Below, one piece after another: positions 1,120 to 15,166 of a stretch of 64,000 nucleotides of DNA. The DNA comes from Lentisphaera profundi. GTDB taxonomy: Bacteria > Verrucomicrobiota > Lentisphaeria > Lentisphaerales > Lentisphaeraceae. Every line of letters starts with the position of its first letter. Position 1 is the stretch's first letter. Position numbers and translations under genes: made by a program. Under the pieces are notes generated by a model. It did not search any database, had not been told where the DNA came from, and worked only from the letters and a program-made list of their open reading frames with translations. The stretch covers positions 2,418,001 to 2,482,000 of the forward strand of contig NZ_CP117811.1 in the NCBI RefSeq assembly GCF_028728065.1, written 5' to 3'.

Positions 1120-2061
1120 CTAGCCAACTATTTTAAACATTTCCATATACTGGTCAATATTTTTAAATACTGTAAAGCCTAGTACGCCAGTGGCAGCAAT
1201 CGCAACTAGAACAGTAACAATACCAGGTTTACCTTTAGTATCTGACTCTAGTAAGTCTTCGTTGGAAACTCCACTTTGAGCTTTTGCTTTAACCTTTGGA
1301 GATGAAGCTCTTTGAGTTCCTGCAGTCTTTAATTTAAGTGTCCCACCAGCAGCATCTGGATCAACTTTTAAGGTCTCATCTGCAGCTACAGGAGCTTTGA
1401 TTTTAAGTGTTCCTGATGCACCTTCAGTAGGACCTGAAGTTTTGATTTTTAAGGTTCCGCCACCATCAGGACTTTTAATTTTAAGCGTTCCGCCACCATC
1501 ACTTGGCGATTGAACTTTAAGAGTACTTCCGGCGTTTGACTGTTCGCTTACTGGTGCTTGAATCTTGAGTGTTCCAGCAGAAGAAGGTTCAGCGGCTATT
1601 GGAGCTTTGACACGAAGTGTACCCGCAGATGCAGGTCCCGAAACTTTAATTGTACCCGTATCTGTAGATACAGAATCTGCTACTTTTAAAGTTGATGCTG
1701 CATTGCGCTGAGGAGGCAAGCGAAGTTCTTGAGTCATTACAGTAGAATCTGTATTACGTACCTCTGCAGATTTAGTGCCCGCTGAAGGTGGTCGTAAACG
1801 AATTGTCTGACTAGCAGTCAAAATACCTGATAATTGTTTCTTACGCTCTTTAATAACTTTCAGGTGTACTGTGTCAGTATAATTCTCACCGTCTAAATTA
1901 ATATTTTGCGTACTGGGTGATACACGTTTTAATTTTGTGGTATCTGTATCACGAATCATTAATGGATCAGTTTCTGCAGCTTCAAGCTGTGGAGAAGCTC
2001 CATTTTGAGCACCCATATTAACGGTCTCGGTATTTTCTATATCTTTATTATTTTCAGACAT
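1120..2061 (-). CDS. TLK(I/V)-repeat protein with C-terminal membrane anchor
   Basis: Unrecognised 313-residue protein, last gene of the pilus-like operon, 15 bases after the third secretin. From about residue 120 to 250 it carries some ten short repeats of the form [ST]-L/I-K/R-I/V/L (GTLKI, STLKV, GTIKV, GTLRV, ETLKV, GTLKL) separated by Pro/Gly/Ala/Ser-rich linkers. Looser TIRL and ELRL versions lie upstream. Residues about 280-298 are a single hydrophobic segment followed by a short tail. There is no signal peptide, so the long disordered part probably stays in the cytoplasm, tail-anchored in the inner membrane. The start is supported by an AGGAG site 9 bases upstream. The role is unknown; position suggests a scaffold or regulator of the secretin system. 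Confidence 0.75.
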   Translation of the reverse strand: MSENNKDIENTETVNMGAQNGASPQLEAAETDPLMIRDTDTTKLKRVSPSTQNINLDGENYTDTVHLKVIKERKKQLSGILTASQTIRLRPPSAGTKSAEVRNTDSTVMTQELRLPPQRNAASTLKVADSVSTDTGTIKVSGPASAGTLRVKAPIAAEPSSAGTLKIQAPVSEQSNAGSTLKVQSPSDGGGTLKIKSPDGGGTLKIKTSGPTEGASGTLKIKAPVAADETLKVDPDAAGGTLKLKTAGTQRASSPKVKAKAQSGVSNEDLLESDTKGKPGIVTVLVAIAATGVLGFTVFKNIDQYMEMFKIVG

Positions 2062-2076
2062 AATAATTTCTCCTAT

Positions 2077-4518
2077 CTACAATTGCTTGAAGTCTGGAAG
2101 ACCTCGAACTGTCATTTTTTTATAAGGTGTACCTACGGGACTTATCAATCTTCCTGTTACAAATATTAAAAGGTTTGATTTCTCAGAACGCTCACCTTTA
2201 CTTTGAAAGAATCTTCCCAAATAGGGGATATCAGAAATATAGGGTATTGAGTCATCAACTGAATATACATTCTCTCTTACTAAACCACCAATCAAGAGTG
2301 TTTCACCATCCCAAATTTGTGCTCGTGTCTCAACCTGACGCACGGCTATAATAGGCATTGCATAGTTGAAAAAATTGGGGATAACAGTATCAAACACAGG
2401 TGATGTATAATCTGAATTAAGATCAGTATCATAGCTTATAAATTCTACTTGTTGTGGATTCAAGTCTAAACTAATCGTATTATTATCTGCAGATACTTCT
2501 GGAGTCACCTCTAAAATCACACCAATATCTCGAGCCTCACCAAAGGTTGGAGTCGTGGGTATTGTAGCATCAGCGTCAAGTTGAGCTTCTTCCCATTCTT
2601 CAGGAAAAAAGCGCTCTTGTACAACTCGTAGTACCACTGTGTTACCACTTTGTGTAACTGCATTAGGTGACGTTAAGAGTTCAGAAGTATCTGTTTGATC
2701 AAGAGCTCTAATCATCATCTGCAGTGATTGATTCCCGAAAACCAAATCTGCTGCCAATTGAACTGGACCTTCTTGAGAAGTAACTACTTCTTGTATTCCT
2801 CGAATATTATTATCGAATCTTTCAGCATTAGCGACGCCGCCATTACCCTGAGCAAAAATCCTATCTCCTGTCAGAGTATGATTAGGTGTCTCTGGACCTG
2901 TCCAACGCCACATAAAGCCTAGTTCTTGAGTACTATTGAAATCGACGTCAATAAATTTAGTTTCCACAGATATTTGTGCACTTGGACGTCCTAATTCATC
3001 GATAATTCTTTTGATCAATTGAATATTAACCGCTGTATTAGTCACAACTAAACGATTGACATTGCTTACAAAAGCAACTTTTGAACCCGCTGGAAAAGTC
3101 ACACCAGAATTGGTGAAATAACTTTGCCAGTTTGTTTCTTCAGAATTTCTTTCAAGGCCATCATCAGTTAAGCCCGCGCCGGCATCACCAACCACATCAA
3201 TCATTGATAAAGGGACATCAAAGAATACAGTTTCAGTTTCTTCTAATGGGTAGTCTTGATCGGCTATATAAACCGCATGCTTATCTATCTTAATCTTTAA
3301 ACCAAGTATATCTGTTATCTGATTAATTAGTTCACCCAACTGCATATCTTCAACACTTAAAAATAGCCTAGCCTGTTTAGCTTGATTATTTGCTACTGCG
3401 GCAACAGGACTATCGCCTTCGTCACCAAAGCCTTCGTCACCAAAGCCTTCGTCACCAAAGCCTTCGTCTGCAAAACCATCGTCTGCAGAAGCTACTGGTG
3501 CTAGCTGCTTGACTTTAGATGCAAAATAGACAATATTGACTCCTTTACCTTCTGGATCAGGATCGAATTCCTTAGATTTCCTTATCAAATCTTCAACAAT
3601 TGATTCAATGCCATCACCATCATAACTGACTGAAGGTATATAAATACGTCTCAAGCGTTCATGAATAGATGTTACATTTTCAGCATTCACATTAATGCTT
3701 GAAGAATTTAATAATTCTGCGTTTAAATCAGCACTCACTCTGATTTTATCTTCCCATTTCCATGAAGTTTCTGCAAGAAGATCTTTCTGTGTAACTCTAT
3801 TTCTTTGTTTACCAAGTGTTTTTATTTCTTCAAAGGTTCTAAAAAGTAAGTGGCTTGCAGGGATATTAAATTTGTCAATTAGTAAAAGGTCTTCTAATTC
3901 TTCACGACATTTAGAGTACTCACCTTGATCAAAGTAAACTTGAGCGCGCTGCATTCTTACATCAACACTCTCTTGCTTGACTAACTCCTCTTCAGTAATC
4001 TGCTCTTCACCGATTAATTTTCTGTACGCTTCTTGAGTAATTGATTCATCTAAACTCGAGATTTTTTCTTTATAAAGTTTTTCATTATCAGGATCTAATT
4101 CTATTAGTTCTTTAAGATACGTTTTTGCTAAATCAAATGATTTGCTTTCTTTCGCTTTATCTGAGTTAGCTAATTTTTCAACAACTAAATTATTGTAAAC
4201 AACAATTTTAAGCTTATCGACATTAGCCACCTTATTAACTAAACGATTTGAAGAACTTTGAGCCTGTAAATACACTTCTTTAGCAGACTGTAGATATGTT
4301 ATCGCAACATGGTTAGAACCATCTTCTACGGCAGTCATAGCTTTGTAATATAAACCGTCTGCTTCTAGTTCTAATTGCTGCTTTCTTATCAGTTCATTAT
4401 TAACAAGCGTCGTCGCATCTATAGATTCCACTGCTACTTTTTCTTGTGCAATTGCATCAATAGAACTTAAACAAGCTATAAGAACAAATGTTTTTGTATA
4501 ATTATTCATCTTAGACAT
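2077..4518 (-). CDS. Secretin 3 of 3, Amuc_1098-type pilus outer-membrane protein
   Basis: Outer-membrane secretin of 813 residues. A signal peptide ends near IDAIA-Q. A helical TPR-like N-terminal half includes the shared start segment NELIRKQQ, followed by an acidic linker with GFGDE repeats (residues about 345-368), N-domain-like modules, and the C-terminal secretin domain with the typical WDGETLLIGGL and IPYISDIPYLGRFF segments. It ends in GLPDFKQL, a tail close to the one on both sister secretins. It is probably the pore of a type IV pilus/type II secretion-like machine. It lies 8 bases behind secretin 2 and shares long near-identical stretches with it. The start is placed after a GAGGA-type site. 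Confidence 0.9.
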   Translation of the reverse strand: MSKMNNYTKTFVLIACLSSIDAIAQEKVAVESIDATTLVNNELIRKQQLELEADGLYYKAMTAVEDGSNHVAITYLQSAKEVYLQAQSSSNRLVNKVANVDKLKIVVYNNLVVEKLANSDKAKESKSFDLAKTYLKELIELDPDNEKLYKEKISSLDESITQEAYRKLIGEEQITEEELVKQESVDVRMQRAQVYFDQGEYSKCREELEDLLLIDKFNIPASHLLFRTFEEIKTLGKQRNRVTQKDLLAETSWKWEDKIRVSADLNAELLNSSSINVNAENVTSIHERLRRIYIPSVSYDGDGIESIVEDLIRKSKEFDPDPEGKGVNIVYFASKVKQLAPVASADDGFADEGFGDEGFGDEGFGDEGDSPVAAVANNQAKQARLFLSVEDMQLGELINQITDILGLKIKIDKHAVYIADQDYPLEETETVFFDVPLSMIDVVGDAGAGLTDDGLERNSEETNWQSYFTNSGVTFPAGSKVAFVSNVNRLVVTNTAVNIQLIKRIIDELGRPSAQISVETKFIDVDFNSTQELGFMWRWTGPETPNHTLTGDRIFAQGNGGVANAERFDNNIRGIQEVVTSQEGPVQLAADLVFGNQSLQMMIRALDQTDTSELLTSPNAVTQSGNTVVLRVVQERFFPEEWEEAQLDADATIPTTPTFGEARDIGVILEVTPEVSADNNTISLDLNPQQVEFISYDTDLNSDYTSPVFDTVIPNFFNYAMPIIAVRQVETRAQIWDGETLLIGGLVRENVYSVDDSIPYISDIPYLGRFFQSKGERSEKSNLLIFVTGRLISPVGTPYKKMTVRGLPDFKQL
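3416..3475 (-). repeat. In-frame 15-bp minisatellite in secretin 3
   Basis: Four tandem 15-base units (ccttcgtcaccaaag and variants) encode the acidic GFGDE linker. Because the unit length is a multiple of three, copy-number change would alter linker length without breaking the frame. Confidence 0.85.
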
Positions 4519-4526
4519 AAATTTAC

Positions 4527-6986
4527 CTAAATCCTCTTAAAGTCTGGAAGGCCTGGCACCTGATTGATCCTCAATGGTAAGCCACTCTCTGTTATCAAAC
4601 GAGCTGTAATAAACATTAATAATGAACGTTTCTCGGAGGCTTCGCCCTTACTTTGAAAAAGTCTTCCGATAAATGGTATATCAGAAATATAAGGGATAGA
4701 GTCGTCTACTGTCCAAACATTCTCTCTAATCAATCCACCTAGCGTAAAGGTCTGGCCATCCCAAAGTTTCACCCTGGTTTCAATTGACCGTACTTCGAAT
4801 ATTGGCATTGAGTAAATAAACTCTACATTATAGTCGCCTAAACCAGGTAACTGTATAACAGTTGAAGTATTAAGGTCCGTATCGTAGCCTATAAACTCAA
4901 CAAATTCAGGATTCACTTCCATTGTAATCACAGTATTATTTGGATCGACTTCAGGAGTGACACTTAAAACAAAACCAATGTCTTTTTCTTCTCCAAATAC
5001 GGGTGTACTAGGAATGATTTCTTGACTATTACTAAATTCTCCTTCTTCCCATTCTTCTACAAATTGAGTCGAAGTCACAACTCTGATGATGGCTGTTTCA
5101 CCACTTTTCGTCAAGACATTCGGAGCCATTAAAATCTCATTGGTATCTGATTGATCAAGCGCACGAATCATCATCTGAAGTTCTTGGTTACCAAAAATCA
5201 AATCCGCTGCTAATTGCACCGGCCCTTCTTGACCCGTTTTGACTTCATTAATTCCGCGAATATTATTATCAAACCTTTCCCCTACAGAAGTCCCACCATT
5301 ACCTTGGGCAAAAATCCTATCTCCAGTCAAAGTATGATTCGGAGTCTCAGGGCCTGTCCAGCGCCATAAAAAGCCCAATTCTTGCATGGCATTCCAAGTA
5401 ATATCAACAACTTTTGCTTCTACATTAACTTGTGCAGAGCCAGTATTTAAGTTATTTATAATGTCTTGTATCAAATGATTATTGTTTACTGTATTAGTCA
5501 CTACTAAGCGATTAACACTCGCAACATATGATAACTTGGCTCCTGCGGGGAATGTAACGCCCATATTCCTAAAATAAGCCGTCCAATCTTGGCCTGAAGA
5601 GTTATCTCTTGTTACGCCTGCAGTTTCCTCAACTAAGTTAAGATTATCTCTCGTTGGTATAATCTCAAGCATTCCTGCTGGGACATTAAAGAATTTGGTC
5701 TCCATAAGATCGAGCTGTACATTGGGCTCTGCAATTACGACCATATGTTCTTCTATCTTCATATTTAAACCCTGAGATTGTACAATCAATTCCAATAGTT
5801 TACCCATGGGAATTTTCTCAACATTTAAACGTACAGGATAAGTTTTTGTAGCTTGTGGTGCAGCTTCAACTAATGCTGGCTCGTCATCGAATGATTCTTC
5901 TTCAAAACCTGAATCTGCAAAGGCATCATCAGCTTCTCCAAATTCATCACTCTCTATAGAAGAAGGCTGTGCTGTAGTGATATTTTCACGTAGAAATACA
6001 ATATTTACACCTTTACCTTCAATATCTTGCTGCTTACTGATTTCTATAAGTTTTTCAATGACATCTGCAAGTGGCTCACCATCATAATTAACTACTGGGA
6101 TTTCTATTTCTAACTTTCTATAAATTTCACCAAAGTTATCATCGTTGCGTTGAACTTGGCTTACTAAAAGGTTCGCCTTATTACCAGATTTAACAATAGG
6201 ATCAACCCACTTCCATGAGTTTTCACTTGCCAATTCTTGGGAAAGTGCTTTTTGACGCTGGGCGCCCTTCACTTTCACAATTTTAGCGATCTGAAATTTA
6301 AGATGACTCGCATCTAGATTATAGGGATCCAAAGTAAGAATTTTATCCAAAACCTCTAAAGCCTTAATATAATCGCCTATATTCTTTAAGATTTCAGCCT
6401 TAGCATAGTAGAGTTTAATCTCTTGGTTAACGCCTTTAACTTCTTCTTGTATGGCTTCTTCATTCACACTTTCTGTATATTCAATATCTTTGTACTGCTC
6501 TTCTAAACCAGCTTTTAACGATAGATATTTCTTTTCATTGTCCGGATCCAAATCTACAGCTAGGTCGAGTAAATCTTTCCCTTTCTGTATTTGCGCGCTA
6601 TTTTTTGCTTTATCCACTACCGCGAGAATATTATCGATTCTATAAATTAAAAAATCTAATTCAATGGCTTTTAATTCATCTTTCAAAACCTGTACAGCGG
6701 CTGAAGATGATGCCAGTGAACTTAAATCATTTTTAGCCTTTTTAATACCATTGTTTAAATCTTCAACAAAGCCAGCATTGAGTTTCTTTCTTAATTCAGA
6801 AATGAAAATTTTTGACTCTAAAAATAGTTGCTGTTTCCTTACTATTTCATTTGATTTAATTGTAGAAGAAGTGATTTGATCAGTTTCACCAGCCAAAATA
6901 TTTTCTGCCACAAGATCTGCATTTTGCGAATGCAAAGAGCCTATGCAGAGAACTTGGTATATAAAAGCTTTTCCAAACTTCATCAT
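4527..6986 (-). CDS. Secretin 2 of 3, Amuc_1098-type pilus outer-membrane protein
   Basis: Second tandem secretin, 819 residues. It has the same layout as its neighbours: hydrophobic N-terminus (FIYQVLCIGSLHS), TPR-like helical region starting with NEIVRKQQ, acidic linker at about residues 345-372 (less regular than in the other two), periplasmic N-domains, and a secretin domain with WDGQTFTLGGL and IPYISDIPFIGRLF. The C-terminus is GLPDFKRI. The block around WRWTGPETPNHTLTGD is identical to secretin 3 over about 25 residues, while secretin 1 differs there. This points to a later duplication or gene conversion between secretins 2 and 3. A GAGG site precedes the start. Confidence 0.9.
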   Translation of the reverse strand: MMKFGKAFIYQVLCIGSLHSQNADLVAENILAGETDQITSSTIKSNEIVRKQQLFLESKIFISELRKKLNAGFVEDLNNGIKKAKNDLSSLASSSAAVQVLKDELKAIELDFLIYRIDNILAVVDKAKNSAQIQKGKDLLDLAVDLDPDNEKKYLSLKAGLEEQYKDIEYTESVNEEAIQEEVKGVNQEIKLYYAKAEILKNIGDYIKALEVLDKILTLDPYNLDASHLKFQIAKIVKVKGAQRQKALSQELASENSWKWVDPIVKSGNKANLLVSQVQRNDDNFGEIYRKLEIEIPVVNYDGEPLADVIEKLIEISKQQDIEGKGVNIVFLRENITTAQPSSIESDEFGEADDAFADSGFEEESFDDEPALVEAAPQATKTYPVRLNVEKIPMGKLLELIVQSQGLNMKIEEHMVVIAEPNVQLDLMETKFFNVPAGMLEIIPTRDNLNLVEETAGVTRDNSSGQDWTAYFRNMGVTFPAGAKLSYVASVNRLVVTNTVNNNHLIQDIINNLNTGSAQVNVEAKVVDITWNAMQELGFLWRWTGPETPNHTLTGDRIFAQGNGGTSVGERFDNNIRGINEVKTGQEGPVQLAADLIFGNQELQMMIRALDQSDTNEILMAPNVLTKSGETAIIRVVTSTQFVEEWEEGEFSNSQEIIPSTPVFGEEKDIGFVLSVTPEVDPNNTVITMEVNPEFVEFIGYDTDLNTSTVIQLPGLGDYNVEFIYSMPIFEVRSIETRVKLWDGQTFTLGGLIRENVWTVDDSIPYISDIPFIGRLFQSKGEASEKRSLLMFITARLITESGLPLRINQVPGLPDFKRI

Positions 6987-6998
6987 ATTAAACCTCTT

Positions 6999-9671
6999 CT
7001 ATAGCCTTTTAAAATCAGGTAGGCCACTCAACGTTCCTGGGCTTACCGGTAGACCTGAAGGGTCAATTAATCTAGCTGTAACAAATATAATTAAATTTTG
7101 CTTTATTGATCGCTCACCATTCGATGTGAAAAATCTTCCTAAAAATGGGATATCTCCTAAGTAGGGTATCTTATCCTCGTAGGTGACTTTTTCTTCACTA
7201 ATCATTCCACCTAAAGCCAGTGTCTCACCATCCCAAACTCGCACAGTTGTATCAACTGTTCTCGATTCAAAAATCGGCATACTAAACTTCTGTTCAAAGG
7301 CGTTATAAACGATTACTTCTGAAGTGCCACCTGTGATAGGATTGATAAGTACAACTTCAGTCCCTACCAGCATATCGACATTGAAAGATTCGTCATACTC
7401 GACAAACTCAATCACTTCTGGCTTGAGCTGAAGCTCAATTACGCGTTGATCTGGGTCGATTTGTGGCGTTACAGTTAGCACCGCACCTATATCTCTGGCT
7501 TCGCCAAAAACAGGCTTAGAAGGAGTCACACTTGACTGACTGCCACCATCACCTTGAGAATTCTGCTCAACTTCTGGCTCTTCCCATTCTTCAGGGAAAT
7601 AGCGCTCTTGCACAACTCTAATCTTCGCAGTATGACCATTTTGCGTCGTTACTTTCGGCGCATTTAAAACGTCTTCGCCACTTCTTTGTTGAATCGCACT
7701 AACCAAAGTATTAAATGTTGTATCACCTAAAATAGAGGCAAACTTAAATGTGCCCTGGCTTAAGCCATTGCCAAGTACACTACCTAGACTTCTGACGGCA
7801 GATTCTAGACCATCTCCGCCATTTGAGGTAAGGTCTCCACTTTTATCTAAGCTGAAACCATCACTTAAAAAATCTGACAGAGGATCGCCATTGACATCAT
7901 AGAGATCACTTGGAGCCCTACCGACATAACCCGCATTTGGGTCAGTAAATCCTGAACCATCTTCAATACGTGCAATCGACCATTCAAAGGCAAGCTCTTC
8001 AATATCTTCTTGATTAATCTCATAGAATTTTGATTCAATAATGATCTGATTTTCAGCCGGTGCTAATTCTTTTATAATTCTATCAATCTTACTATGCTCA
8101 GCCGGCGTATTCTTCACAACTAAACGATTGACCGACTGAATAAAAGATATTTCAGAACCCGCATCAAATTTTATTCCAAATTCATCAAAGTATTCTCTCA
8201 CACCTTTAGCTGTGCCACCACCATCACCAGCACCACCTACGTCTTCAATTAAACTTGCTCCGCCCGTGTCAAGATTAGGCTCAATCAAGTCTAAAAAACC
8301 TGCTGGGACATCATAAAAACGTACTTCCATTGTATCTAAAGGAATGCTTTTATCCGCGATAATAACCGCATGTTCAGTAACTTTGAATTTTAAGTCTTGC
8401 TGCAAGCAAATAAGCTCAATTATTTTCAAAATTGGCACATCACTTAATCGTAATGACACTCCATTACTTTGCTGTGGTGCAGCTGCAACTTCAGCTCCTC
8501 CGTCTAAGCCAGCATCTTCTCCAAAGCCAGCATCTTCTCCGAATCCAGCGTCTTCTCCAAATCCGGCGTCTTCTCCAAATCCAGGCTCTTCTACTTTTGC
8601 CGCAGCAGCAGCCTCATTTATACGCAAGATAATATTAACACCTCGCTTTACGGGGTCTGGATCATAATCTTTAGACATCTGCTTAAGTCGAGCAACAATT
8701 GAATCGAGAGAATCATTATCAAATACTACACTGGGAACTTTAATGCCATTAAGCTTATCAAATACATCTTTAACTCTAGCATCATCATTCCGGATTCGAC
8801 CATCTATGGCTACATTGACGGCAGTACCAATTTGAGTACTCGGTCTAAGTGGTTGATTCCACTCCCACTCAACCTGAGCTAACCTTTCTTCACGCGTAGC
8901 TTTACGCCTAACTCTTCCCAATTCTTCGACTCTTGCATTAACTCTTAACAACAAAGTCATTGCCTCGGAATCGAATGGGTTCGCAACTAAAATCTGTTCC
9001 AATACATCTTTGGAATCCATGTATCTTCTATTGGCAAAGAGAATCTCTGCTTGCTCATACTTAATGGCGTTAGGTCTATCAATCTCTTCTTCTCTTATTT
9101 GATTAATACCTTTTTCGTCTACTTTCTTTACAAACAATAACTCTTCTTCAATTTCTTTATACTCTTTGATTTTCTCATTAATCTCATCTTCTCTTAGCGG
9201 GTTAACCGCTATAGCCGCATTTAATGTTGAGATGGCTTCAGAATATAAATCTGCGTCTACTTCCTCCCTAGCCTTAGTCATAAGTTGACCTGACTTAAGA
9301 ACCAAAGCTTCTGCTTTATTTTTATTGGCAATATCAATTTTCGCCAAAACGTCTTCACGAGTTTTTGAAACTCCGCCATACCCCATAACAGCCGCGTCAA
9401 AGCCAGCTATCGCAGCGTCGTAATCACCCAAGGCAAAATTCTTCATGGCTCTATTAAACTTCAACTCGGATTCAATCAATCGCTGCTGGCGTCTTATTTC
9501 TTCATTTCGTGTGACCGTTGATCTAGTAGCTTTGGAGCCGTTTTCATCACTTTGATTTTCTTTTAATATTTCTTCAGATACTTTTGCAGCTTCATCTTGA
9601 GCAAGTGCTGAAAAAGATAGTGACAAAGCTACAACCGTCGCCAATCTACTATATAATGACGTATTGTTCAT
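6999..9671 (-). CDS. Secretin 1 of 3, Amuc_1098-type pilus outer-membrane protein
   Basis: First of three tandem secretins in transcription order, and the longest (890 residues). It has a clear signal peptide ending SFSALA-Q, a TPR-like N-terminal half (NEEIRRQQ), an acidic GFGEDA repeat linker at about residues 363-388, and a secretin domain with WDGETLALGGM and IPYLGDIPFLGRFF. The C-terminus is GLPDFKRL. It is the most diverged of the three, with an extra loop rich in Gly/Asp/Ser about residues 560-640. In Akkermansia the corresponding locus has, as far as I recall, one secretin (Amuc_1098). Whether the three form mixed or separate rings cannot be told. An AGGAT site precedes the start. Confidence 0.9.
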   Translation of the reverse strand: MNNTSLYSRLATVVALSLSFSALAQDEAAKVSEEILKENQSDENGSKATRSTVTRNEEIRRQQRLIESELKFNRAMKNFALGDYDAAIAGFDAAVMGYGGVSKTREDVLAKIDIANKNKAEALVLKSGQLMTKAREEVDADLYSEAISTLNAAIAVNPLREDEINEKIKEYKEIEEELLFVKKVDEKGINQIREEEIDRPNAIKYEQAEILFANRRYMDSKDVLEQILVANPFDSEAMTLLLRVNARVEELGRVRRKATREERLAQVEWEWNQPLRPSTQIGTAVNVAIDGRIRNDDARVKDVFDKLNGIKVPSVVFDNDSLDSIVARLKQMSKDYDPDPVKRGVNIILRINEAAAAAKVEEPGFGEDAGFGEDAGFGEDAGFGEDAGLDGGAEVAAAPQQSNGVSLRLSDVPILKIIELICLQQDLKFKVTEHAVIIADKSIPLDTMEVRFYDVPAGFLDLIEPNLDTGGASLIEDVGGAGDGGGTAKGVREYFDEFGIKFDAGSEISFIQSVNRLVVKNTPAEHSKIDRIIKELAPAENQIIIESKFYEINQEDIEELAFEWSIARIEDGSGFTDPNAGYVGRAPSDLYDVNGDPLSDFLSDGFSLDKSGDLTSNGGDGLESAVRSLGSVLGNGLSQGTFKFASILGDTTFNTLVSAIQQRSGEDVLNAPKVTTQNGHTAKIRVVQERYFPEEWEEPEVEQNSQGDGGSQSSVTPSKPVFGEARDIGAVLTVTPQIDPDQRVIELQLKPEVIEFVEYDESFNVDMLVGTEVVLINPITGGTSEVIVYNAFEQKFSMPIFESRTVDTTVRVWDGETLALGGMISEEKVTYEDKIPYLGDIPFLGRFFTSNGERSIKQNLIIFVTARLIDPSGLPVSPGTLSGLPDFKRL
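8509..8580 (-). repeat. In-frame 18-bp minisatellite in secretin 1
   Basis: Four tandem 18-base units plus a partial fifth (ccagcatcttctccaaag and variants) encode GFGEDA repeats. This is the equivalent of the 15-bp repeat in secretin 3, but with a different unit length. Confidence 0.85.
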
Positions 9672-9703
9672 ATTAACAAATCCTCGTTCTCTATTGATAA
9701 ATT

Positions 9704-10717
9704 TTATTTAACAGGGCTTAATATCGATTTCTTACTATCGATTTCAAACTCTTCATTTGTTTTTCTACTGAATATAATGGCCTTTAATACCTTTTCTTTA
9801 CCAATTCTTCGCCATCCTCTAAAGTCCACCACTTCCTTAACACCATCTAAGCCTAATAAATTATGTTTGGAATCGTCCGCTACGAACTCTTGTTTCCCAC
9901 CTAAGTTATTGTATATAACCATTCCGCTACCATTGGGCGGATACACATACTTGCCCTTATAAACCTTTATAAGCTCCGCACCTTCCTTTTTAACCGAAAG
10001 CACAACTTTACCTTCAACTTTTTCTATATCTACCAAGCTATAGTCGCTAGCAAAAATCACACCACCAACTCTCACCCACCTCGTCTTACGACGAGAATCC
10101 ACAAACTGGACTTCCCATAAGGCTTTATTAGATCCTGAGGTCTGGTCTGATTTATAAATAAACTGTAATGGCTTTGCTTTCTTTGGTATCGCCTGAATAA
10201 AATTAAGCATCGATGGATAACTAGATGGATCATCGATCAAAGTCGGCACACCGTTAATCCCCACGGTAATTTCATCATAATTACTAAAACCATCTTTATC
10301 CCTATCCTCTAAAGCATCATCCGGATTATTCGGATCCATATTGTACTCAGCTTCCACTGTGTCAAGTATGCCATCGCCATCACTATCTCCATCCTCAATC
10401 TCTTTAGCAAAATCAACTTGAGTTTTACACCATGGACACTTTCTGAAATCATCATGAAAAACTTTATTGCACGTCTCATCTCGGCAGAGTAAATATTGGC
10501 GGTTTTCAAACACGGTCTCTAACCTTAGAGCCTTCACTGGCTTCCCCGATATGACCTTCCCATCTACCACTTCTATCGGCTGAGAACCAGAAAGTTTTAT
10601 CAATTCTATGGGGTTCACATCTACCGTCGCAACAACAAAGACTGCTACAACCACTAATACCGCCATCACAACAATCAACATCACCTTTTCAAGGTTGGCT
10701 TTTATAAAATCTTTCAT
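9704..10717 (-). CDS. Amuc_1099-like pilus-system protein with zinc ribbon and TSP3-type repeat
   Basis: Membrane protein of 337 residues in the position of Amuc_1099. One N-terminal transmembrane helix (about residues 11-33) is followed by a four-Cys cluster, C-x4-C-x10-C-x2-C, at about residues 78-98 that should bind zinc. A calcium-type thrombospondin-3/dockerin-like stretch (DSDGDGILD and DRDKDGFSNYDE) follows at about residues 112-150, then an unrecognised beta-rich C-terminal part. The single N-terminal helix suggests the bulk is periplasmic. It lies one base after the Amuc_1100-like gene and 32 bases before the first secretin. By position it may link the inner-membrane parts to the secretin. 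Confidence 0.75.
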   Translation of the reverse strand: MKDFIKANLEKVMLIVVMAVLVVVAVFVVATVDVNPIELIKLSGSQPIEVVDGKVISGKPVKALRLETVFENRQYLLCRDETCNKVFHDDFRKCPWCKTQVDFAKEIEDGDSDGDGILDTVEAEYNMDPNNPDDALEDRDKDGFSNYDEITVGINGVPTLIDDPSSYPSMLNFIQAIPKKAKPLQFIYKSDQTSGSNKALWEVQFVDSRRKTRWVRVGGVIFASDYSLVDIEKVEGKVVLSVKKEGAELIKVYKGKYVYPPNGSGMVIYNNLGGKQEFVADDSKHNLLGLDGVKEVVDFRGWRRIGKEKVLKAIIFSRKTNEEFEIDSKKSILSPVK

Positions 10718-10718
10718 T

Positions 10719-11690
10719 CTATTGTTCCAAATAACTAGCTTTAAATTGAATCCAATCCAAACTAATCTTCATAGTTTGTTCTGGCGCCTCAAATGCACGA
10801 ATATTAACTCTTTCCTCAGGCTCCACTTCCACTTCCACTTCCTCACTTAACAAAGCCTCTCCTTCAACTTGATTCAACAAATCATCCACACTAGTGACTT
10901 TATCCTCATCTGGAGATTTGATTGGAGCGGCCTCTTTAAGCATCAAAGGAACAAGATCCTTATCCACCTGCGCAGCCGTCACCATACTCACACTATTAAT
11001 TCTATAATAAAACTGCTTATCATTGGTGATTTTATTTAAAACTGTACCAAAACCCTCAGGCTTAACCTTTAATACCAATACAAAAGTATAAACTTTTGCG
11101 TAAGCTTCCCCCATCTGAGTTTCCTCTAATTGATTAGGGCGACTTACACTCGAAATCTCAACCACACCACTACTAGCAATGATTTTTACCAAGTTTTCAA
11201 TAGCTACAAGTTGCTCCATTACCTTAACTTTATCTCGAGCTTCCATTTTGAATACCCTTGACACCTCATCATCAAAAGAAAAATTGAACTCATCTGTAAC
11301 TACAATCTCTGCACTCTCACAGATTTTTCTTAATGACTCTATTGACTCCAAAAACTTATCCTGAACATCTTCCGACCGCATTTCAGCAACCGCAGACGCA
11401 TCGTGATTATAATCTTCGATCAAAGAGGAATAATAGTCGTTAAAACCACTTTTCAAGGAGGCTATATTATCTTGAGATAACTTCCTATTAAGGTCATCCA
11501 GCTTATATTTAGTGCTATTTATCTGCTGTGTATCATTACCCAACCGTGCTTTTTCTTCTTGCAGTTTTGCCGTCTCAGATTTATATACAAAAGAAAGCTT
11601 AAACAATACTGTACTCACAACGAACACCGAAACTAGCAATGCGACATTTGCTTTATTATCTTTTATTATCTCTAAAATTTTATCTTTCAT
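10719..11690 (-). CDS. Amuc_1100-like / PilO-like pilus protein
   Basis: Protein of 323 residues, close to the size of Akkermansia Amuc_1100. It has an N-terminal membrane helix (about residues 16-33), a coiled coil (about 35-75), a ferredoxin-like alpha/beta part and an acidic Pro/Glu/Val-rich tail. This helix-coil-ferredoxin plan is that of PilO/GspM-type alignment proteins. Its start codon overlaps the stop of the PilM-PilN gene (TAATG), showing translational coupling, and the next gene begins one base after its stop. Assignment rests on gene order, size and fold plan rather than on a strong motif, because this family is weakly conserved. Confidence 0.72.
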   Translation of the reverse strand: MKDKILEIIKDNKANVALLVSVFVVSTVLFKLSFVYKSETAKLQEEKARLGNDTQQINSTKYKLDDLNRKLSQDNIASLKSGFNDYYSSLIEDYNHDASAVAEMRSEDVQDKFLESIESLRKICESAEIVVTDEFNFSFDDEVSRVFKMEARDKVKVMEQLVAIENLVKIIASSGVVEISSVSRPNQLEETQMGEAYAKVYTFVLVLKVKPEGFGTVLNKITNDKQFYYRINSVSMVTAAQVDKDLVPLMLKEAAPIKSPDEDKVTSVDDLLNQVEGEALLSEEVEVEVEPEERVNIRAFEAPEQTMKISLDWIQFKASYLEQ

Positions 11691-13462
11691 TAATCAACCC
11701 TACCAATATTCTTTACACCTAACTGCGCTTTAAAATAAGCAAAGGCCTTATTTTTACTCTGTCGCTTCTCTAAAGGCCCCGTTATACCAGGAGGGTCAAC
11801 TAAGACGTACTCCGATATTGCAATATCCTCTAACATTTTGGACAAGACTTTCTGTCTTTTTCCTGTACTGCCTAGTACCGGATATTGAACATAATAACCC
11901 TCAACAATAACTGATCCCACATCGGTTGATTGTGTTTGACTGTGTAATACTTTATCTCGCTCAGCTTTTTTTACAGCAAACTTCGACAAGGTCTTAGTGT
12001 CTTTTAGAACCTCTCCCTGTAAAACACTCACTGCCTGACCTGCCTGAGGCGTTATTGAGGTGATCCACAAAGGCTTAGGTTTATATTTTCTAAGATCATT
12101 TAAAAAACTTAGCCACTCAAATCTCTCTTCATTTAAAACTTCTAATTCAGTCACTTTATTTTTAACTGACTCACGAAGCTTATTCTGTTCATTGATTTTA
12201 TCTAAAATCTTTTTATAACCCTCTATCTTAGCTGCTTTACCCTCAATCTGACCCTGATAATGCAAACGCTCCCTAAAGGATCCCGCTAGAATAATCAAAG
12301 GCACCAATATAGCAACCGCAGCCGTAGCGTAGTTATAGGGCATTTTACCTTTTCTAATCAAGTCCTTTTGCACAGACTCGGGGGTCAATGAAATCTCTAC
12401 CGGACACTCACTTATTCGTAAGACCAAGCCAATCACTTCACTAAATAAATGCGCTAATTCAGCCAGCTCTTGCCTATCTACGTTCGCCCCTAAACTCACT
12501 CCATTCTGAAATGGATTGAAATACTTAACATCGATCTTCATTTTTTCTTGAAAAAATGTCTCGGTGAACAGCATCGTTGAACTACCACCAGAGAGGTGCA
12601 TTATTTCTGGCTTTGCACCCTTCTGCTGATTCTTGAAAATGTTAATAGAGCGACTAACTTCACCGTGTAATCGCGTCATCACATTACGAACAATTTTTGA
12701 AATTGTCGCAGCTACCTCAGACTCAGGCTCTTCATAAGCCCCGCCCAATGCAACAAAACCATGACGCCTCTTCAACTCTTCTGCCTCTTCCAAACCAATA
12801 CCGAATTCTTTCGCTACTTGCTGAGTTATAGCATGCCCCGCAATTGGAATATTTCGTGAGAAGAAACTTGTTCCATCTGAAAATATTAAATTAGATACAC
12901 GTGATCCAATATTCAGGACCATCGCACATTTATCAAAACCAATCCGATTAACTCGTATAGCGTTGTATGAGCTCGAGGTCGCAATATCAACGATCTCTAC
13001 TTTTAAGCCACACGCTTCAACTGTTGCCACTAACTCTTCAACAATTTCATTTTTAATCGCAACAAACATCACTTCAACTTCTTCTGCATCCGTAGAAGAA
13101 ATTAACTGGTAATCCCAAATCACTTCATTCATTTCAAAAGGCACATTTTGTCGAGCTTCAAACTCTACAACTTGCCTTATCTTATGAACATCATCACCTA
13201 CTGGAGGCAATTTAACAAATTTTGTAAACGCCATCTGCGCAGATAGGCTGACGTAAGCTTTTTTCGCCTGTACACCACGCTCTTGAATAAGCTTAGTTAA
13301 GGTTGATTTTAATAGAGCAGCTCTATTGCTCTCTGTTTGCAACTCGTCATATTCACGATAACCAAATCTCTCAAGTGTAATTACTTTATGATCGACTTTA
13401 AACTCACCAAGTTTTAAGCTTGATGCGCCAATATCAATGGTGACTACTGATTCTGAAGCCAT
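11690..13462 (-). CDS. pilM: PilM-PilN fusion (GspL-like), Amuc_1101-type
   Basis: Inner-membrane protein of 590 residues. The N-terminal 340 residues are an actin-like PilM/FtsA-fold ATPase domain: it opens with VTIDIGASSLKLGEF, has a second phosphate-type segment near VLNIGSRVSNL, and contains LSGGSSTMLF. A transmembrane helix at about residues 376-396 is followed by a coiled coil and a periplasmic PilN-like region (WLSFLNDLRKYKPK, LWITSITPQ). The layout equals GspL or a PilM fused to PilN. It should recruit the Amuc_1100/PilO-like partner, whose gene overlaps its stop. It is the second gene of the operon. Confidence 0.88.
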   Translation of the reverse strand: MASESVVTIDIGASSLKLGEFKVDHKVITLERFGYREYDELQTESNRAALLKSTLTKLIQERGVQAKKAYVSLSAQMAFTKFVKLPPVGDDVHKIRQVVEFEARQNVPFEMNEVIWDYQLISSTDAEEVEVMFVAIKNEIVEELVATVEACGLKVEIVDIATSSSYNAIRVNRIGFDKCAMVLNIGSRVSNLIFSDGTSFFSRNIPIAGHAITQQVAKEFGIGLEEAEELKRRHGFVALGGAYEEPESEVAATISKIVRNVMTRLHGEVSRSINIFKNQQKGAKPEIMHLSGGSSTMLFTETFFQEKMKIDVKYFNPFQNGVSLGANVDRQELAELAHLFSEVIGLVLRISECPVEISLTPESVQKDLIRKGKMPYNYATAAVAILVPLIILAGSFRERLHYQGQIEGKAAKIEGYKKILDKINEQNKLRESVKNKVTELEVLNEERFEWLSFLNDLRKYKPKPLWITSITPQAGQAVSVLQGEVLKDTKTLSKFAVKKAERDKVLHSQTQSTDVGSVIVEGYYVQYPVLGSTGKRQKVLSKMLEDIAISEYVLVDPPGITGPLEKRQSKNKAFAYFKAQLGVKNIGRVD

Positions 13463-13471
13463 ATAATCGAC

Positions 13472-14128
13472 CTATTTTTTGTTTGAAATTTTGGGAAAAA
13501 TCTGAGATTGAGTAGCAGCCCACGGACTATCATCTTTCGATGTAAAGATTCCCTCAACTGAATCCAAATTTTCGCTATCAAATGAAGTCTCTTTAAAACC
13601 TTTCATTAGCGATTTCTGACGCTTTCCTGACTGCACATAAAACTTCGTATTCAACTGTGTTTTCCCTTCCACTTTAAACACCGCATAGACACTTAAGATT
13701 TTATGGACATCTTTAATACCACCTAGATAGCGATTGATGACATCAGGACTTACTAAAATAGTCGCGTAATAATCACCATTTGTTATGTTTTCATACGTGA
13801 CTACTTTCTGTGTTTTTTTATACTTTCCGTCTCTTGCCTTATACAAACCCTTCCAGGTAATACTTACTTTATTTAACCAAGTCCCATCATCCAAGGCATT
13901 TGCTTTTTTTGCGACGCCTTTAACGCGAAACTGAACTGTTATTGATGTCCACTCGCCTGTATTTGGATTCGAACTTTTAACTATATTATTAACTGTTATC
14001 GGAGGTGCTAATTTAGTATTGACATCGATCTTGCCGACCTCAATTATTGACTGACCACTCTGGGCAAGCGCCGTAAAACTACTTCCTACAGTTAACACGA
14101 ACATAAAAAATGAAGTTATTTTTCTCAT
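13472..14128 (-). CDS. Amuc_1102-like secreted pilus-system protein
   Basis: First gene of the operon, 218 residues with a signal peptide cleaved near TALA-Q, then a beta-rich mature part (ITVQFRVKG, WLNKVSITWKG, YYATILVSP). By order and size it matches Amuc_1102 of Akkermansia, which lies beside the PilM-type gene there. It lacks motifs I can tie to a function. An AAGG site lies before the ATG. The 87 bases upstream to floA are AT-rich with TATAAA-like stretches and probably hold the operon promoter, but no clear spacing of -35 and -10 boxes can be defended. Confidence 0.7.
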   Translation of the reverse strand: MRKITSFFMFVLTVGSSFTALAQSGQSIIEVGKIDVNTKLAPPITVNNIVKSSNPNTGEWTSITVQFRVKGVAKKANALDDGTWLNKVSITWKGLYKARDGKYKKTQKVVTYENITNGDYYATILVSPDVINRYLGGIKDVHKILSVYAVFKVEGKTQLNTKFYVQSGKRQKSLMKGFKETSFDSENLDSVEGIFTSKDDSPWAATQSQIFPKISNKK

Positions 14129-14215: not shown

Positions 14216-15166
14216 TTAAAGGGACTGAGCACGCCATTGTGAGACGTTTTTTACACTAGATTCTTTCGTTCCGATCACGCCATCGTCAATTCCACACTTT
14301 ATAGCACTTGGCAACACTGCCCTCGCCAAAACAACTCCCGCGCCCATTTCTTGCAACTTTGCTTTCATTTCTTGTTGCCTTGCTTTCGCCTCGGCCTTTT
14401 TCGCTTCTGCGCGCGATTCTGCAACTTTTTTATCCGCTTCAGATTGGATTGAATCTAGCTTCGCCTTAAGATTATCTAAAACCTGCACACCTGAAACATC
14501 GACTGAGACCAGCGTGAAATAGGTACCATTCAATACATCTGAATCAGCTTTGAGGTGCTCGACTAACAAGGACGGGTTATTTAAAATTTCTTTATGAGTT
14601 TCCCTCGACCCCACAGCTCCCAAGATCTTCTCTTGAACTCTTGCCTCCACCGTTGAAACACCCGCTCCACCAATCAATTTATTTAAATCCGACCTAACGG
14701 TTAACTTCACATTAATACCAAGACGAATCCCATCCTTAGCTACCGTAACTATATGTCCACCATTCCGATGATCTGGACAATTTATAACAATTGGATTTAC
14801 ATAACTACCAACTGCCTCCACCACATCTCGTCCCGCTAGATCTAAGGAACAGAATTGCTCGAAGTCTATATCTAATGACGATTTCAAAGAAGACACCGAC
14901 GCATCAACAACTGCAAATACATTACCACCACACAAAGCATGACTCTCGAGTCGCACATATTCCACATCAATACCGGCCCGTATCAGCATAATATAAGCAT
15001 CAACGAGCATATCGGGATTCAAGCCTCTCAGGCGCGAAAAAACGATATTGACAAAACCTAAGTCGATACCGTTTGATTTTACTTTGACGTAGGCGCCTAT
15101 ATTAACAAACACTAAAAAGACCAGCATTAAGAAAACTAATACCCCTAGTGCTATTAATAAATACAT
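14216..15166 (-). CDS. floA: Flotillin-like protein FloA
   Basis: Membrane scaffold protein of 316 residues, close to the usual 330 of FloA (YqfA). An N-terminal membrane segment (about residues 2-24) is followed by an SPFH-type core (VKSNGIDLGFVNI, IDVEYVRLESHALCGGN), an Ala/Glu/Lys-rich coiled coil (about 235-275) and the C-terminal LPSAIKCGI segment typical of the family. FloA organises functional membrane microdomains in other bacteria. Its ATG lies one base after the guaB stop, so the two are probably co-translated. It sits directly upstream of the pilus-like operon in the same direction. Confidence 0.9.
   Translation of the reverse strand: MYLLIALGVLVFLMLVFLVFVNIGAYVKVKSNGIDLGFVNIVFSRLRGLNPDMLVDAYIMLIRAGIDVEYVRLESHALCGGNVFAVVDASVSSLKSSLDIDFEQFCSLDLAGRDVVEAVGSYVNPIVINCPDHRNGGHIVTVAKDGIRLGINVKLTVRSDLNKLIGGAGVSTVEARVQEKILGAVGSRETHKEILNNPSLLVEHLKADSDVLNGTYFTLVSVDVSGVQVLDNLKAKLDSIQSEADKKVAESRAEAKKAEAKARQQEMKAKLQEMGAGVVLARAVLPSAIKCGIDDGVIGTKESSVKNVSQWRAQSL

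Follow-up and report, generated by a model that had tools for sequence, protein, structure and literature searches.

The window analyzed here, a stretch of 64,000 nucleotides from Lentisphaera profundi (assembly GCF_028728065.1, contig NZ_CP117811.1, positions 2,418,001–2,482,000), carries on its minus strand an operon of eight open reading frames (ORFs; 14128 to 1120) related to the Amuc_1098-1102 pilus genes of Akkermansia muciniphila, in which the secretin gene is present in three tandem copies (S1, S2, and S3). The operon is best read as the PilMNOPQ-like alignment complex of a type IV pilus, the motor genes of that pilus being dispersed elsewhere in the genome. While the gene set is already known from Akkermansia, the tandem arrangement of three (or, in relatives, two) secretins is the new part. 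We give an even chance to the reading in which the secretin paralogues of such a complex cooperate, most likely in mixed rings, and slightly less than that to the proposal that a natural hetero-oligomeric secretin for the type IV pilus has been reached independently several times in Verrucomicrobiota, with three subunits in Lentisphaera. Secretins are usually treated as homomeric rings; repeated secretin-only duplication together with co-evolution of the copies makes a concrete, testable case for mixed rings, and a case for how symmetric membrane machines turn asymmetric.

The genes run in the order Amuc_1102-like, Amuc_1101-like PilM-PilN fusion, Amuc_1100-like, Amuc_1099-like, S1, S2, S3, and TLK-repeat protein, with intergenic gaps of 9, −1, 1, 32, 12, 8, and 15 bp from the first to the last gene. 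This is the close-packed set that the first-pass annotation, a model's reading of the sequence alone, had described, and both its order and its coordinates were recovered. No strong terminator-like hairpin was noted between the eight genes, the sole strong one (1097–1067, minus strand; 14 pairs followed by a T tail) being directly 3′ of the TLK gene; the eight genes are therefore likely one transcription unit. The operon lies on the larger of the two replicons of this 5.46 Mb genome.

Profile searches support all five Amuc_1098-1102 families for the operon. NCBIfam models for Amuc_1098, 1099, 1100, and 1101 matched directly, while the Amuc_1102 assignment comes via relatives and a structural entry (PDB 7dsz, see below), so the small proteins did match the families that the first-pass annotation had named. 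Amuc_1098_fam matched all three secretins (S1, E = 7e-114, 381 bits; S3, 1e-96, 324 bits; S2, 7e-84, 282 bits; equivalog cut-off 750 bits), and the scores of the 1099-, 1100-, and 1101-like proteins were 27, 56, and 425 bits against cut-offs of 50, 180, and 650 bits, respectively. None of the window proteins attains the equivalog cut-off of its Amuc family, and they are homologous relatives of these families rather than equivalogs. Iterated profiles of the window proteins recovered the operon of A. muciniphila MucT (genome G272, 2,664,102 bp; locus L108) at matching positions, with 102 (1102), 551 (1101), 210 (1100), 76 (1099), and 345 bits (secretin).

For copy number, 61 loci were fetched and the secretins recounted in each; a few of these were cut by contig ends, and three were second secretins away from the operon. 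The secretin counts of the search tables were not used, since no more than 2–4 candidates per genome had been scored in them. The order 1102-1101-1100-1099-secretin was constant across the 61 loci and secretin number alone varied, with the 1099–1102 genes remaining single copy, consistent with the earlier suggestion that the outer-membrane part had multiplied over a single inner-membrane part. Within the class Lentisphaeria, single secretins were seen in families f2, f4, f5, f6, f9, f10, f12, f13, and f14, and two secretins in families f3, f17–f20, f23, and f24 and in one Lentisphaeraceae member (G003). Three secretins were found only in Lentisphaera (3/3 species examined), and the triple is a genus-level step. 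Outside the class, tandem pairs were noted in genomes G249, G405, G280, G459, G439, and G383; a fused double secretin in G249, suggested by a 1954-amino acid (aa) frame in the search, was rejected, as a TAA codon separates two genes. The same copy-number pattern was seen in 80 named loci from GTDB species, whose genomes overlap in part with the former. The multiplication first noted in the window is hence real but not peculiar to this genome: much of Lentisphaeria typically has tandem pairs, and independent duplications have produced them in several verrucomicrobial families besides.

In the secretin tree, the copies from families f17–f24 form two clades of 21 with mirror topology, and both copies are retained, in fixed order, in 21/21 genomes. 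The Lentisphaeraceae copies group apart, divided into S1 versus S2/S3, with the S2-S3 split placed within the Lentisphaera line, and genome G007 duplicated its secretin alone. A single ancient duplication for all second copies was rejected by the approximately unbiased (AU) test (p = 6e-8), as was a common origin of the Lentisphaera and f18–f24 second copies (p = 3e-4). Tandem duplication has thus recurred, by our reading of the tree in at least five independent events, and has in every case been confined to the secretin.

S1 (6999–9671, 890 aa; PF00263, E = 1e-33), S2 (4527–6986, 819 aa), and S3 (2077–4518, 813 aa; the sister of S2 in the tree) share 34–46% pairwise identity. Each retains a TPR region, N domains, a complete PF00263 barrel, and a C-terminal tail, and none looks degraded; S1 aligns full-length to the Amuc_1098 profile, S2 and S3 in two pieces. 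An AlphaFold2 (AF2) model of S2, with its TPR N-terminus, N domains, and barrel, has as its best PDB match in Foldseek the Vibrio cholerae pilus secretin PilQ of the type IV competence pilus (6w6m, E = 2.4e-22). Synonymous sites are near saturation, yet each of the three Lentisphaera species has kept the reading frames intact.

A 78-aa block comprising the first barrel hairpin and its loop (5151–5384 in S2; 2695–2928 in S3) is 87% identical between S2 and S3 compared to 39% elsewhere, and the same disparity holds in all three Lentisphaera species (86–88% vs. 39–40%). Of a recent conversion event between these two copies there was only a weak sign: the codon identity of the block is at ortholog level, and since 3/167 overlapping blocks outside it also attain that level, constraint is an equally possible cause. 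The variable loop residues of the block tend to match between S2 and S3 within a species (e.g., TGPRTP in both copies of G004), which may hint at conversion or co-adaptation. All three secretins end in a GLPDF tail motif (S1, 7011–7025; S2, 4539–4553; S3, 2089–2103); an RGLPDF[RK]R-like tail occurs in 63/70 Lentisphaeria secretin rows and 0/26 others sampled, and may be a binding motif for an outer-membrane partner.

Co-variation between secretin copies was measured in 19 pair-bearing genomes after removal of the distances of 1099, 1100, and 1101. Between copy 1 and copy 2, it reached 0.70 for barrel with barrel, 0.62 for N domains with N domains, and 0.27 for TPR with TPR, whereas barrel and N domain within one protein gave lower values (0.22 and 0.32); the values were stable on leave-one-out. 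The unrelated secretin GspD, used as a control in 17 of those genomes, gave 0.15 and 0.04 with the two barrels, and removing its distances changed nothing. As the domain-matched co-variation exceeds the within-protein value and GspD lacks it, the ring-forming domains of the two paralogues evolve as if touching or facing a common partner. The data thus favor cooperation of the copies, which could take the form of a mixed ring or of two rings on one pilus, and do not decide between the two options offered in the first pass (one base serving three pores, or mixed rings).

In the mechanism we propose, the PilM-PilN fusion, the PilO-like protein, a probable PilP-like protein, and the secretins would form, with the exported Amuc_1102-like protein, an envelope-spanning alignment complex powered by PilB, PilT, and PilC from other loci. 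Its three secretins would be long-diverged paralogues, arisen by secretin-only duplication, that together serve one machine, most likely as one hetero-oligomeric ring in which neighboring subunits come from different paralogues. Having kept an almost unchanged outer-hairpin block, S2 and S3 would be the easiest to exchange for one another, with S1 as a distinct subunit. Mixed multimers of two PulD forms have been described (PMC4604470). Several points weigh against such a ring. S1 shares only 34% identity with S2/S3 and differs from them in its outer hairpin loop, which is longer; the barrel signal falls to 0.43–0.46 in subsets, and the GspD control possibly mixes paralogues. Moreover, the co-variation was measured in pair-bearing relatives, Lentisphaera itself offering only three close species, and a common substrate (one pilus) acting on separate rings could also be the source of co-evolution. 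To our knowledge, known secretin rings are homo-oligomers. Mixed multimers of the f1 and IKe pIV proteins have reportedly been obtained.

The strong divergence of S1, S2, and S3 and their differing surface hairpins would also suit three separate homomeric pores that share a single inner-membrane base and come into use as conditions change or at distinct places in the cell, as would the second secretins found at unlinked loci in Akkermansia and other lineages. We regard this as rather doubtful, given that tight co-transcription order and the 21/21 retention of both copies argue for simultaneous use and that the domain-matched co-evolution lies above the within-protein level. It is very unlikely, in our estimation, that one paralogue forms the pore with the others accessory to it (as gate, periplasmic ring, or assembly partners): the full-length profile match of S1 compared to the two-piece matches of S2 and S3 would fit such a division, but all three have kept the complete domain set described above. 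That the additional copies lack a special function, being neutral or serving dosage only, is highly improbable, as their frames are intact in three Lentisphaera species despite near-saturated synonymous sites and both copies persist across the f17–f24 clade.

A further alternative concerns the substrate and is compatible with any of these ring models, namely that the cluster is built from pilus parts but mainly makes a device for secretion or polymer uptake. In its favor, the operon has no pilin genes, and mucin uptake in Akkermansia needs pilus-encoding genes according to a review (PMC12418764). Against this, the PilM-PilN-PilO-type parts, the competence pilus PilQ as best match of S2, and the presence in the genome of motor genes for a retractable pilus make the device quite unlikely.

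The alignment-complex reading itself is preferred because the operon encodes the one strong PilM that the genome has, while the PilT-PilC (C1:1775985) and PilB (C2:2064946) genes lie in secretin-free neighborhoods; the complex would depend on this scattered motor. The two other secretin loci of the genome carry their own motors. The PilM in question is the Amuc_1101-like fusion (11690–13462, 590 aa; NF045709, E = 8e-127), which matches PF11104 (E = 1e-38) and TIGR01175 (135 bits, cut-off 133). A transmembrane (TM) segment at residues 378–394 is followed by the part we infer to be PilN-like from the Amuc_1101 family and the TM topology.

The Amuc_1102-like protein (13472–14128, 218 aa, predicted to be exported) had no direct NCBIfam match, but 20/24 of its aligned relatives match NF042424 (Amuc_1102), its family profile retrieves the Amuc_1102 structure (PDB 7dsz), and its first position in the operon is conserved. 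The Amuc_1100-like, PilO-like inner-membrane protein (10719–11690, 323 aa; NF038287, E = 5e-15) belongs to a family whose profile retrieves the Amuc_1100 structures (PDB 6lad/6kny). Among 20 of its relatives, two match Pfam PilO (6e-6) and one matches T2SSM, while the window protein itself has no Pfam PilO match; Amuc_1100 has been described as structurally similar to proteins of type IV pili and of the type II secretion system (T2SS) (PMC13119276). Single-sequence PDB searches with the 1102-like and 1100-like proteins gave nothing useful.

The Amuc_1099-like protein (9704–10717, 337 aa; NF042425, E = 3e-6) comprises a TM helix, a Cys4 knuckle (10427–10486), calcium-type TSP3 loops (10271–10393), and two small C-terminal beta domains, and TSP3_bac occurs in 13/21 of its relatives. 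The knuckle beside the TSP3 loops (10271–10486) is seen in Lentisphaeria 1099-like proteins, whereas the Akkermansia member lacks the knuckle. Its family profile found no match in PDB. Foldseek with an AF2 model (predicted local distance difference test score 77) gave no significant match; among the matches listed, LspC, a GspC-type protein, and PilP ranked top by probability (0.80 and 0.69), at E ~0.4. PilP/GspC-like by position, the protein probably takes the PilP role.

Compared to the type IVa PilMNOPQ system, the operon shares PilM (fused here to a PilN-like part), a PilO-like protein, a secretin with a PilQ-like fold, and PilB, PilT, and PilC encoded separately in the genome; it differs in the fusion, in the TPR joined to the secretin, in having several secretins, and in the divergent protein at the PilP position, which carries zinc- and calcium-type motifs. 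The two-secretin operons of Victivallales-type Lentisphaeria, and those of certain other verrucomicrobial families, resemble it in secretin-only duplication and fixed order, and those of Lentisphaeria also keep the tail motif, but they have two copies that were duplicated independently (an origin shared with the Lentisphaera copies being rejected at AU p = 3e-4).

The A. muciniphila Amuc_1098-1102 cluster comprises the same five families in identical order, with one secretin in the operon compared to three in Lentisphaera, and has neither the TLK protein nor the GLPDF tail. It has been described with a single secretin, and Lentisphaera araneosa mentioned merely as having a homologue (PMC4960237, PMC5332112). 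In the open-access literature (subscription papers being outside the search), we found no report of natural hetero-secretins or tandem secretin genes. The single secretin that the first pass gave for the Akkermansia locus holds for the operon; strain MucT carries a second Amuc_1098-family secretin elsewhere (L109:9147-11672, C1:1979191). This copy precedes a 546-aa protein whose N-terminal segment is basic, and was rejected as an operon member because it has just one other gene beside it; an equivalent pairing with a 519-aa protein is seen in G364 (L111). As had been suggested of an ancestral role unrelated to a host, the Amuc_1098-1102-type system is found widely among free-living and environmental genomes, and its basic role is hence not host signaling or otherwise host-specific. 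The therapeutic protein family Amuc_1100 is thereby assigned to a pilus machine that is common in the environment.

The last gene of the operon encodes the TLK-repeat protein (1120–2061, 313 aa), with a C-terminal TM anchor and T-x-x-[ILV] repeats. It was found only in Lentisphaeraceae, i.e., Lentisphaera and G003, the latter with two copies flanking the secretins; beyond the window, TLK proteins were noted at L082:6803-7774 and L082:13134-14015. Of the 31 threonines of the window protein, 19 lie in T-x-x-[ILV], compared to an expectation of 5.6 from 2000 shuffles, none of which exceeded 15. This spacing is preferred by phosphothreonine-binding FHA domains, and the genome encodes 13 FHA proteins; as a guess, the protein might be a phospho-regulated docking rod bearing a putative array of FHA-binding phosphothreonine sites. 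On C2 of the same genome (L243), a PilT-like ATPase gene and, on the other strand, an FHA-domain gene are ~2 kb apart (8317-9429, 11340-12629). Finally, upstream of the operon on the same strand is a flotillin-like FloA gene (14216–15166), separated from the first operon gene by 87 bp.
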